Source of the DNA: Chamaelirium japonicum
Taxonomy: Eukaryota; Streptophyta; Magnoliopsida; Liliales; Melanthiaceae
Reading direction: 5' to 3'
DNA length: 64,000 nucleotides
Assembly (NCBI GenBank): GCA_947650365.1
Contig: OX393557.1
Coordinates: 54,288,972 to 54,352,971 of the forward strand
Shown here: positions 20,765 through 23,153 of the stretch, in pieces
Position numbering within the stretch: the first letter of the stretch is position 1
Layout of the letters: the number at the start of each line of letters is the position of its first letter
Notes under the pieces: generated by a model
The model's database searches: none
The model's input: only the letters and a program-made list of their open reading frames with translations
What the model was told of the DNA's origin: nothing
Made by a program: the position numbers and the translations under genes

Positions 20765-20872
20765 TCTCTCTCTCTCTCTCTCTCTCTCTTTATATATATA
20801 TATATATATATATATATATATATATATATATATATATATATATATATATATATATATATATATATATATATA
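20765..20872. repeat. (CT)n then (TA)n microsatellite, array 1
   Basis: (CT)n at 20765-20789 passes directly into pure (TA)n at 20790-20872. It is the left flank of palindrome 1. Confidence 0.98.
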
Positions 20873-20874
20873 GA

Positions 20875-21448
20875 CTGGGATCCGTTGACAACCCAAAATG
20901 GGAGGTAAATTTACCTCCCATTTTAAACTAGATTCAATCGGTGGATAGAGGTTTCCGAATTTGTTGATTTTTTGTGAGGATGATCAACATGACAAGTTGA
21001 TCATCCTCACAAAAAATCAGCAAATTAGGAAACTTATAAGGGCGTCAAATGTGTTATTCAAATTAACAGTTCAAATAGATGGTTTAGAAAAGCTTGATTA
21101 AATCGGCGCCCCTAGAAGTTTCAGATTTTATTGATTTTTTGTGAGGATGATCACTATGGCAAGTTGATCATTTTCACGAAAAAATCAACAAAATCTGAAA
21201 CTTCTAAGGGCGTCGTTTGAATAAATCTTTTCTGAACCGTCTATTTGAACTGTTAATTTGAATAACACATTTGACACCCTTATAAGTTTTAGAATTTGCT
21301 GATTTTTTGTAAGGATGATCGACTTGCCATGTTGATCATCCTCACAAAAAATCAGTAAATTAGGAAACATCTATCCAACGATTATGGCGAGTTGTAAGTA
21401 GGAGGTAAATTTACCGCCCATTTTCAGTTGTCAACGGATCCCACCCCT
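20875..21448. mobile_element. Palindromic foldback/MITE element 1 inside (TA)n
   Basis: The termini TGGGATCCGTTGACAAC (20876-20892) and GTTGTCAACGGATCCCA (21427-21443) are perfect inverted repeats. Most of the interior pairs imperfectly arm to arm. Nested inside are a palindrome around GGGAGGTAAATTTACCTCCC (near 20900-20919) and three short hairpins with the word GAGGATGATC and its complement (near 20975, 21145 and 21315). No coding capacity. Bounded by (TA)n on both sides, so any TA target duplication is hidden. It resembles the rice Micron type of (TA)n-associated MITE in context; identity to that family is not shown. Confidence 0.85.
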
Positions 21449-21586
21449 ATATATATATATATATATATATATATATATATATATATATATATATATATAT
21501 ATATATATATATATATATATATATATATATATATATATATATATATATATATATATATATATATATATATATATATATATATATAT
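21449..21586. repeat. (TA)n microsatellite, array 2
   Basis: About 138 bases of uninterrupted (TA)n between palindromes 1 and 2. Confidence 0.98.
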
Positions 21587-21720
21587 GGGCATGCGGTACG
21601 TGCGGCACTGCACCGCAGCCGTCTGATGCACTACTGCGTGCATGCGATGCACGCAACGCATGCATCAGACGGCTGTGGTGCAGTGCCGCACGTACCGCAT
21701 GCCGCATTATAACATGCCCG
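21587..21720. mobile_element. Palindromic element 2 inside (TA)n
   Basis: Left arm 21589-21630 and right arm 21661-21702 are inverted copies of 42 bases with one mismatch, separated by a 30-base loop rich in GCATGC words. The right terminus (CGCATTATAACATGCCCG) is longer than the left. The fragment at 23111-23153 has the full terminus, so the left arm here carries a small internal deletion. Confidence 0.85.
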
Positions 21721-21822
21721 TTTATATATATATATATATATATATATATATATATATATATATATATATATATATATATATATATATATATATATATATA
21801 TATATATATATATATATATATA
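21721..21822. repeat. (TA)n microsatellite, array 3
   Basis: About 100 bases of (TA)n between palindromes 2 and 3. Confidence 0.98.
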
Positions 21823-22214
21823 GAGGAATGCTTAGGTGAGCTATGAGCTACGGAAGGAGAAAATGAGCTACGGATATTTTGACCACCCTAGAAGTTTTGG
21901 AATTTCGTGAAAATCGGTGGGTGTGTTCTCTAGGGTAACATGATCATCCTCACCAATTTTTAAGGAATTCCAAAACTTCTAGGGTCATCAAATGGTAGAA
22001 GCAAAATTAACGGTTACTACGGACGGTAGATAAAGCTTCTACCATTTGATGACCATAGAAGTTTTGGAATTCATTGAAAATTGGTGAGGATGATCATGTT
22101 ACCCTAGAGAACACACCCATCGATTTTCACGAAATTCCAAAACTTCTAAGGTGGTCAAAATATCCGTAGCTCATTTTCTCCTTCCGTAGCTCATAGCTCA
22201 CCTAAGCATTCCTC
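21823..22214. mobile_element. Palindromic element 3 inside (TA)n
   Basis: Ends GAGGAATGCTTAGGTGAGC and its exact complement at 22196-22214. The two halves pair along nearly the whole 392 bases around a centre near 22020. Internal words such as CCAAAACTTCTA and GATGATCATGTTACCCTAG occur in both orientations. No coding capacity. Confidence 0.87.
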
Positions 22215-22450
22215 TCTCTCTCTCTCTCTCTATATATATATATATATATATATATATATATAAATATATATATATATATATATATATATATATTTATATA
22301 TATATATATATATATATATATATATATATATATATATATATATATATATATATATATATATATATATATATATATATATATATATATATATATATATATA
22401 TATATATATATATATATATATATATATATATATATATATATATATATATA
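22215..22450. repeat. (CT)n then (TA)n microsatellite, array 4
   Basis: (CT)n to 22230, then about 220 bases of (TA)n with two small interruptions (near 22261 and 22292). It is the longest array of the cluster. Confidence 0.97.
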
Positions 22451-22968
22451 GAGGCATGCTTGGTTGCGCTGTGCGCTGCCGAACCAGATGTGCGCTGCGC
22501 ACACGGGCCGTCCGATCCGGGACGATCAAACGGCCCGGCTGATTCCCGCTCCCGCTCCCGCACCGCACCGCACAGCCTGCACCGCACCGTTCCCGCAACC
22601 GTCGGATCGGATCGGATTTGTGATCGAGCGGCCGCTGAACATTTCGCTGTTACTGTAGCGGCTACAGTAACAGCGAAATGTGTTTCTGGCCACTCGATTC
22701 CCATCAAACCCTTCGATCGAACGGCCCGTAACACATTTCGCTGTTACTGTAGCCGCTACAGTAACAGCGAAATGTACAGCGGCCGCTCGACCTCAAATCC
22801 GATCCGATCCGACGGTTGCGGGAGCGGTGCGGTGCAGGCTGTGCGGTGCGGTGCGGTGCGGGAGCGGGAGCGGGAATCAGCCGGGCCGTTTGATCGTCCC
22901 GGATCGGACGGCCCGTGTGCGCAGCGCATATCTGGTTCGGCAGCGCACAGCGCAACCAAGCATGCCTC
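22451..22968. mobile_element. Palindromic element 4 inside (TA)n, GC-rich, with nested hairpins
   Basis: Ends GAGGCATGCTTGGTTGCGC and its complement (22950-22968). The arms pair over about 180 bases, including CCCGCTCCCGCTCCCGCACC blocks. Inside are two separate 43-base palindromes, each with arms ACATTTCGCTGTTACTGTAG, at 22639-22681 and 22733-22775. No protein is plausible; apparent long frames are by-products of base composition. Confidence 0.87.
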
Positions 22969-23110
22969 TATATATATATATATATATATATATATATATA
23001 TATATATATATATATATATATATATATATATATATATATATATATATATATATATATATATATATATATATATATATATATATATATATATATATATATA
23101 TATATATATA
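22969..23110. repeat. (TA)n microsatellite, array 5
   Basis: About 142 bases of pure (TA)n after palindrome 4. Confidence 0.98.
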
Positions 23111-23153
23111 GGGGCATGCTATAATGCGGCATGCGGTACGTGCGGCACTGCAC
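23111..23153. mobile_element. Half of a palindrome-2-type element
   Basis: GGGGCATGCTATAATGCGG followed by CATGCGGTACGTGCGG matches the complement of the right end of palindrome 2. The element breaks off at CACTGCAC and telomere-like repeats follow. Confidence 0.8.

Follow-up and report, generated by a model that had tools for sequence, protein, structure and literature searches.

A non-nested array of palindromic, probably Mutator-like elements in TA microsatellites of Chamaelirium japonicum

Introduction

The SaTar elements of guayule, rice, sorghum and citrus are non-autonomous Mutator-like elements (MULEs) flanked by (TA)n, with a 10 bp target duplication in eleven of fifteen guayule families (extracts of PMC5907723). 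The array described here resembles SaTar in its (TA)n flanks and in the arrangement of different families in non-nested arrays. Autonomous MULEs with similar ends, defective in SaTar and microsatellite-flanked too, have counterparts here for two terminal types from elsewhere in the genome. As far as the extracts of PMC5907723 describe SaTar, our array differs in the many near-complete palindromes with internal hairpins, in similar cores that occur between different ends, and in the target duplication, which was shown for none of the elements here.

The pineapple elements Ac-mMITE-1 and Ac-mMITE-2 are likewise very abundant, recent and (TA)n-flanked, form clusters by adjacent insertion, and have GA...TC termini from which (GA)n/(TC)n runs have grown (extracts of PMC8449440). 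These extracts report two families whose ends are related and for which no autonomous element was found, whereas we distinguished eleven terminal types by eye and detected transposase partners for two of them, the two systems being compared by description and not by sequence. MuTAnT of Medicago shares with our elements the foldback structure, a variable terminal GGGG, the location in TA tracts, empty sites at which TA units are fewer and an element with a transposase gene, Jittery-like in MuTAnT, and TA targeting together with an autonomous MULE was already published for it; its copies outside perfect TA have 9 nt duplications (14/218), whereas none was demonstrated here (extracts of PMC4486113). 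Micron (rice) and TAFT (maize) are also associated with TA microsatellites, according to the descriptions in PMC5907723 and PMC4486113, and PMC5907723 relates that maize empty sites of 6-8 bp TA expand to (TA)50 on each side. The architecture of the array is already known from SaTar and Ac-mMITE (extracts of PMC5907723 and PMC8449440), and the original prediction that a cluster with shared ends is not a standard description does not hold.

Array structure in the window

The window, i.e., the whole 64-kb stretch of DNA analysed, contains at 20,791-23,154 five (TA)n tracts (82-220 bp) alternating with four large palindromes (E1-E4) and one half element (E5). Coordinates and arm complementarity confirmed the predicted layout, as follows (all features without strand).

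20765..20789, (TC)n run, left border of the array
20791..20872, tract 1, (TA)41
20873..21447, E1 palindrome, terminal type K, 575 bp, arms of 265 nt, 88% complementary; left end GACTGGGATCCGTTGAC, inverted right end GGGGTGGGATCCGTTGAC; interior with a GATGATC core and three internal hairpins
21448..21586, tract 2, (TA)n, 139 bp
21587..21722, E2 palindrome, terminal type B, 136 bp, arms of 43 nt, 98%
21723..21822, tract 3, (TA)50
21823..22214, E3 palindrome, terminal type A, 392 bp, GAGGAATGCTTAGGTGAGC ends, internal hairpins
22215..22230, (TC)n run, adjoining E3 on the right
22231..22450, tract 4, (TA)n, 220 bp, with two interruptions
22451..22968, E4 palindrome, terminal type C, 518 bp, GAGGCATGCTTGGTTGCGC ends, core with TGTTACTGTAGC/GCTACAGTAACA hairpins
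22969..23110, tract 5, (TA)71
23111..23154, E5, broken half element of type B, comprising 44 nt of a single arm
23155..23221, degenerate telomere-like repeats (TAAACCCTAAATCTAAACCC...), immediately adjoining E5 where its arm is broken

All TA runs of at least 10 units in the window are within these five tracts. The palindromes were predicted to start and stop exactly at TA, which is mostly the case, the right end of E3 being parted from TA by the (TC)n run to 22230. With the TA tract counted in, the arms of E3 span 280 nt (95% complementary) and those of E4 281 nt (97%). The left end of E2 is short of about 15 nt of tip, and the reverse complement of the E2 right part matches E5. Inner hairpins are found inside the outer arms in E1, E3 and E4. 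Inverted 14-mer matches (at most 700 nt apart, pure TA excluded) reach 188 per kb in the cluster and 1.4 per kb in the remaining window, an approximately 140-fold difference in density. The single-stranded DNA fold of E3 is -213 kcal/mol, the shuffled mean being -37, with 0/100 shuffles as low. As in MITE/foldback elements, the palindromes are small, present in high copy, and covered for the most part by inverted repeats.

The interiors of E1 and E3 are similar (68% over 158 nt, E=2e-9), while their ends are not shared; none of the five remaining pairings of E1-E4 matched at E 1e-3. The interiors of E2-E4 were predicted to be unrelated, and no match was indeed detected between them; the prediction missed the core shared by E1 and E3 and the similar cores found elsewhere with different ends.

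E5 breaks off within the arm and passes straight into the degenerate telomere-like repeats (TAAACCCTAAATCTAAACCC; window 23111-23221), as if telomeric sequence had sealed a break at the palindrome. Other repeats of the window include two 181-bp tandem arrays, at 38211-41406 (17.7 copies, 98%) and 35414-36185 (4.3 copies, 96%), whose consensus units are by eye reverse complements of each other; tandem arrays of the short units CCGTCGGTA/TACCGACGG at 2816-3431, 29210-29870 and 41934-42149; and a similar ~43-bp GC-rich unit (GGGACCCACCGACCCTGCCTGGGGGGTCCACGAAGACTACCGC) in two arrays about 5 kb apart, at 48262-48828 and 53328-53891.

Genome-wide copies and TA flanks

The host assembly (G000) has 1.52 Gb in 3,253 contigs, and the large contigs, eleven of which were seen to span 69.9-137 Mb, are consistent with about twelve chromosomes (C24 has 2.5 Mb). 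The FAR1-type genes and a 5S-like retroelement flank agree with a plant genome. Loose first-look candidate counts in the host genome were 3,776 for E1, 3,654 for E2, 3,033 for E3 and 768 for E4, with 40 scored per element. The scored copies of every full element are dispersed over many contigs. E1 of the window is 93-94% identical to the 39 other scored copies, the 40 scored E3 copies have 99-100% identity (two further copies beside them, 91%), and the full-length E4 copies show about 81-98% identity.

We cut 52 loci (L001-L052) around E3 and E4 copies, in which the segments between TA tracts form many groups, and eleven terminal patterns (A-K) were defined from these segments by eye. At least 5 TA units are present within 60 bp at 204/213 termini, a proportion that is partly circular, since the loci were found via E3/E4 and the end patterns learned beside TA tracts, and that counts one place twice (L001 and L031). 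Five of the nine termini without such a tract have (GA)8 or more. With hundreds to thousands of candidates and these TA flanks, the expectation of dispersed palindromic families tied to (TA)n was borne out. No complete element lies inside another recognised element in 74 adjacent complete pairs (0/74; L001-L052 without L031), in a test whose patterns miss some ends, leaving 30 neighbouring ends in the same orientation.

The exact 26-nt E3 terminus was found 175 times genome-wide, with C four bases outside it in 3 cases, which were inspected individually. One of the three is formed by two E3-type elements fused through TC, the second is inside a GA tract containing a C, and the third has a left flank that is not microsatellite; among the three, inspected as possible copies lacking TA flanks, the last alone abuts microsatellite-free sequence. 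The analogous type K pattern has one occurrence genome-wide (the total of K termini was not counted).

Two kinds of neighbours were observed beside the elements. At L075/L091, a type A element has inserted ~120 bp downstream of a putative primer binding site that adjoins a 5S-rRNA-like LTR, which we take to be a Cassandra-type TRIM. At L009, L021, L023 and L050, the arrays start right after a sequence (left side) that ends in a short hairpin and TTACTAG, presumably resembling a Helitron 3' end; this looks like another element type using the same TA sites.

Transposase-encoding partners

We detected 1,214 PF10551 candidates in the genome, 150 of which were scored. One sits 2.2 kb from an E4-type copy, within a 7.7-kb element that has long inverted ends (C1:13447121-13454865). 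In this J-ended element the MULE transposase domain (PF10551) is accompanied by FAR1 (PF03101) and SWIM (PF04434) domains, distributed over two open pieces with an in-frame stop between them. From 40 scored candidates, 18 termini of the C1 family were chosen by an alignment reaching query position 1-3 or by an inverted end, and 17 of these adjoin TA/AT runs of 21-172 bp; at the remaining one (L069) the run measures 9 bp, and a second tip and a long tract follow beyond it. Ends of other types are present across the tract from several of these termini. Small type J elements match the first 39-45 nt of the C1 MULE at 77-85%.

Eight further PF10551 5' regions, picked from the 150, revealed TA-flanked ends in three (L077, L080, L082), which were absent in five. 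The C298 MULE (L082) begins at a TA tract and has ends of type G; its identity to a small element of that type is 88% over 58 nt, and its 826-codon frame contains FAR1, MULE and SWIM domains (PF03101, PF10551, PF04434).

A mudrA-type partner was rejected, as TA-flanked ends were detected in 0/5 PF03108 elements (picked from 150 scored; ~2.4 kb upstream).

The TA-flanked ends in the examined PF10551 and PF03108 5' regions (3/8 and 0/5) include none of the E1-E4 types, and the J and G ends are absent from the window. Transposase-encoding, TA-flanked MULEs with similar ends were thus found for types J and G, not for the E1-E4 types. FAR1-type MULE transposases encoded in this genome most likely mobilised the elements of the array, and we infer that E1-E4 use such transposases as well.

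Tip and core composition

In the fetched loci, the elements consist of a tip of ~50-65 nt and a core of ~270-300 nt and are two-way mosaics of these parts. Shared ends with unrelated interiors, as originally proposed, describe half of this pattern: E3 and E4 have related ends (type A versus C tips score 26; shuffled maximum 8.5) and no core match. Three ~270-nt core queries across the loci led to 79 places, and both tips could be classified in 53, with the same type at both ends in 53/53 and mixed types in 0/53. These are 29 A, 9 H, 8 J, 4 D, 2 X and 1 C elements, the 29 A being near-identical copies, which leaves an effective count of 24. Galileo of Drosophila mojavensis, a member of the P superfamily, resembles our elements in its long inverted repeats and in sequence exchange between subfamilies, and differs in having 12 chimeric copies with two different ends, where we found none in 53 (extracts of PMC3573991).

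Cores that are 91-96% identical bear unrelated ~50-65-nt tips (H, X, C/D; B at one end only). The median core identity is 93.8% for H versus X and 93.7% for H versus H, while the best H-X pair scores 1.5 over the first 50 nt of the tips (shuffled mean 1.7). Core identity reaches 96.3% for C-H, 95.2% for D-H and 92.6% for B-H, C and B being represented by one element each and B classified at one end only. The B tip scores 13 against H, where the highest of 100 shuffles reaches 8. The A, C and D tips are mutually related. In eight chosen pairs (identity 91-95.5%, total lengths 398-402), the matched stretch starts 48-69 nt from the ends, and the two switch points deviate from symmetry by at most 3 nt in 5/8 and by 5-13 nt in the other three. 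Type D tips occur on two different cores, and one of these cores shares 95% over 57 nt with type C.

A core tree was calculated from 43 of the 79 places, with type A limited to 6 and with matches below 220 bits or with an unclassified tip, including all type K, dropped. Types A, J and X form single groups and H and D are scattered, at weak branch support; all labels need 7 changes (least possible 6), and the strong branches force 1 (H) and 2 (D). The tree by itself does not prove repeated swaps, because so few changes are forced, and the case for tip swaps lies mainly in the comparison of core and tip identity.

The type C base 5 is matched at both ends in 20/21 pairs less than 1 kb apart (by eye, among 100 listed of 117 sites). 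Homogenisation of the arms, suggested by this match, was rejected on the arm distances: E3 arms differ by 5.0% within a copy and by 2.8-2.9% between copies, with 0/58 closest to their partner, and E4 arms differ by 5.1% within and about 8% between copies, with 4/40 closest to their partner. These distances indicate no continuous homogenisation in E3 and at most a little in E4, and we take the matched base 5 to be subfamily structure.

Target sites and tract growth

The L017 array sits in a repeat, of which L024 and L011 are copies without the array, 71-82% alike. At the positions of the outer TA tracts of L017 (127 and 70 bp), these empty paralogues carry CTATATATAAATATATTC and GGAATATATTTTA, with pure TA runs of 8 and 6 bp in L024 and of 6 bp in L011. 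Since pure TA covers only 6-8 bp at the two paralogous empty sites of this one array, the tracts probably grew with or after insertion, in agreement with the second option of the original prediction, that TA tracts expand upon insertion.

A second repeat gave 1,032 candidates, 40 of which were scored and 20 read (ranks 2-21). In 16/20 copies a TA tract of 5 or more units begins no more than 4 bp after CCCTTATT (CCTTTATT in one copy), and copy L106 enters an impure tract. L092, L095 and L096 are without tracts and have kept the short TATAGATA end (TTATTATATAGATA); L092 and L095 do carry elements, and L096 is without a recognised element end. A known element end type is next in 13/20 copies, and L105, L108 and L110 appear to be duplicates of a single insertion. 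This second repeat, which ends in CCCTTATTATA or similar (L042, L022, L016, L048, L092-L111), is thus an insertion hot spot. Together with the empty sites of L017, the repeat-end series indicates that elements land at the TA-rich ends of common repeats and that long tracts accompany occupancy.

Elements are almost always in TA tracts, and one repeat end has been struck repeatedly, the TA-rich site clearly being the target; both observations would also be expected if long TA microsatellites had pre-existed as landing pads, with no expansion linked to insertion. We regard this as unlikely, given the 6-8 bp of pure TA at the two empty L017 paralogues and the tract-free L092, L095 and L096 with their short end, two of which are nevertheless occupied.

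GA units at type A and C termini number 0-1 in 66, 2-4 in 2 and at least 5 in 41 (n=109; L001-L052 without L031), which fits growth in jumps and not in single slips. The junction phase is odd in 11/12 H/J/F pairs and even in 14/17 clean pairs of A/C, the types of E3 and E4, a grouping that was made after the counts were seen; over all types, 22 are even and 19 odd. The A|GAGG junction is nearly fixed in types A and C. We tentatively read the phases as 9-bp-like and 10-bp-like duplications, although at the impure sites L092 and L095 no more than 4 flanking bases are identical. Mutator elements have target duplications of 9-10 bp (8-11). No clean 9-10 bp target duplication was detected in the copies with C outside the tip, and no clean target duplication in 99 paired elements (only 5 of which have a microsatellite-free side) or at two repeat-end sites (L092, L095); nor did these searches yield a clean copy away from TA.

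The speculative model of the SaTar paper, a circle recombining homologously into TA tracts (extracts of PMC5907723), would have the element and its flanking TA move as a unit. Tracts on both sides, the absence of nesting and the nearly fixed A|GAGG junction would be accounted for in this way; copies that have hardly any TA, or none, on one side or both (L075, L092, L095) and both junction phases in several types speak against it and make it improbable in our case.

The elements could also be Tc1/mariner-like (Stowaway-like) MITEs with a 2-bp TA target, the array merely mirroring a TA preference. The even phase of 14/17 clean A/C pairs would suit such elements, as would the 4 identical bases of L092/L095 in place of a 9-10 bp duplication. 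The terminal motif of Stowaway MITEs is CTCCCTCC. Our element ends are G-rich and apparently unlike this motif, types J and G have ends in common with FAR1-MULE elements, and a 2-bp TA duplication cannot yield the odd phase of H/J/F (11/12) without later change, so that we consider this origin very unlikely. An assembly artefact or local tandem duplication is extremely improbable: palindromes and microsatellites are difficult to assemble, and the array was examined in the assembled sequence, but the scored copies of every full element are spread over many contigs and the neighbours differ at the E3 and E4 loci read.

Discussion

Our results suggest that small, palindromic (foldback) Mutator-like elements of a non-autonomous kind probably form the cluster, as a non-nested array of elements that inserted at TA, with tracts that have grown, and that were probably moved by FAR1-MULE transposases. 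MULE-type palindromes would insert by cut-and-paste into a TA-rich site, and different types would arrive one after another, each in the TA tract beside the previous element. The tracts, at first a few units long, would have lengthened to about 40-110 units either on insertion or later, possibly in the repair of each insertion, and the grown tract could be reused by other element types. The insertion order and the mechanism of tract growth are inferred.

Symmetric tip replacement is the newest part of the observation. No description of it was found in the open-access literature searched, which does not prove its absence, and a term search of PMC3310237 (MULEs with multiple TIRs) gave nothing relevant. 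Tentatively, we suggest that new families may arise by symmetric tip swapping, a possibility that we put forward with some doubt. One arm of a palindrome would gain a foreign ~50-65 nt tip for transposase recognition, and fold-back copying of this single arm (e.g., from a broken half element like E5) would restore a palindrome with the new tip at both ends. Fold-back copying is proposed because a tip swap requires both ends to change together, and it is the simplest route that we can name. A stable core could thereby switch transposase and remain in the TA-array niche. Frequent fold-back repair in recent copies is disfavoured, because the E3 arms are not homogenised; such events would be rare. 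As an alternative to swapping, the tips may have diverged earlier under weaker constraint than the cores.

The array adds a genome very rich in TA-targeting MULE-type elements, together with transposase partners for two types, to the described systems. The growth of TA tracts upon landing of an element and the simultaneous change of both recognition ends in palindromic elements become testable within one genome. If tip swapping is general, sorting of families by their ends alone and by their interiors alone would lead to conflicting trees.
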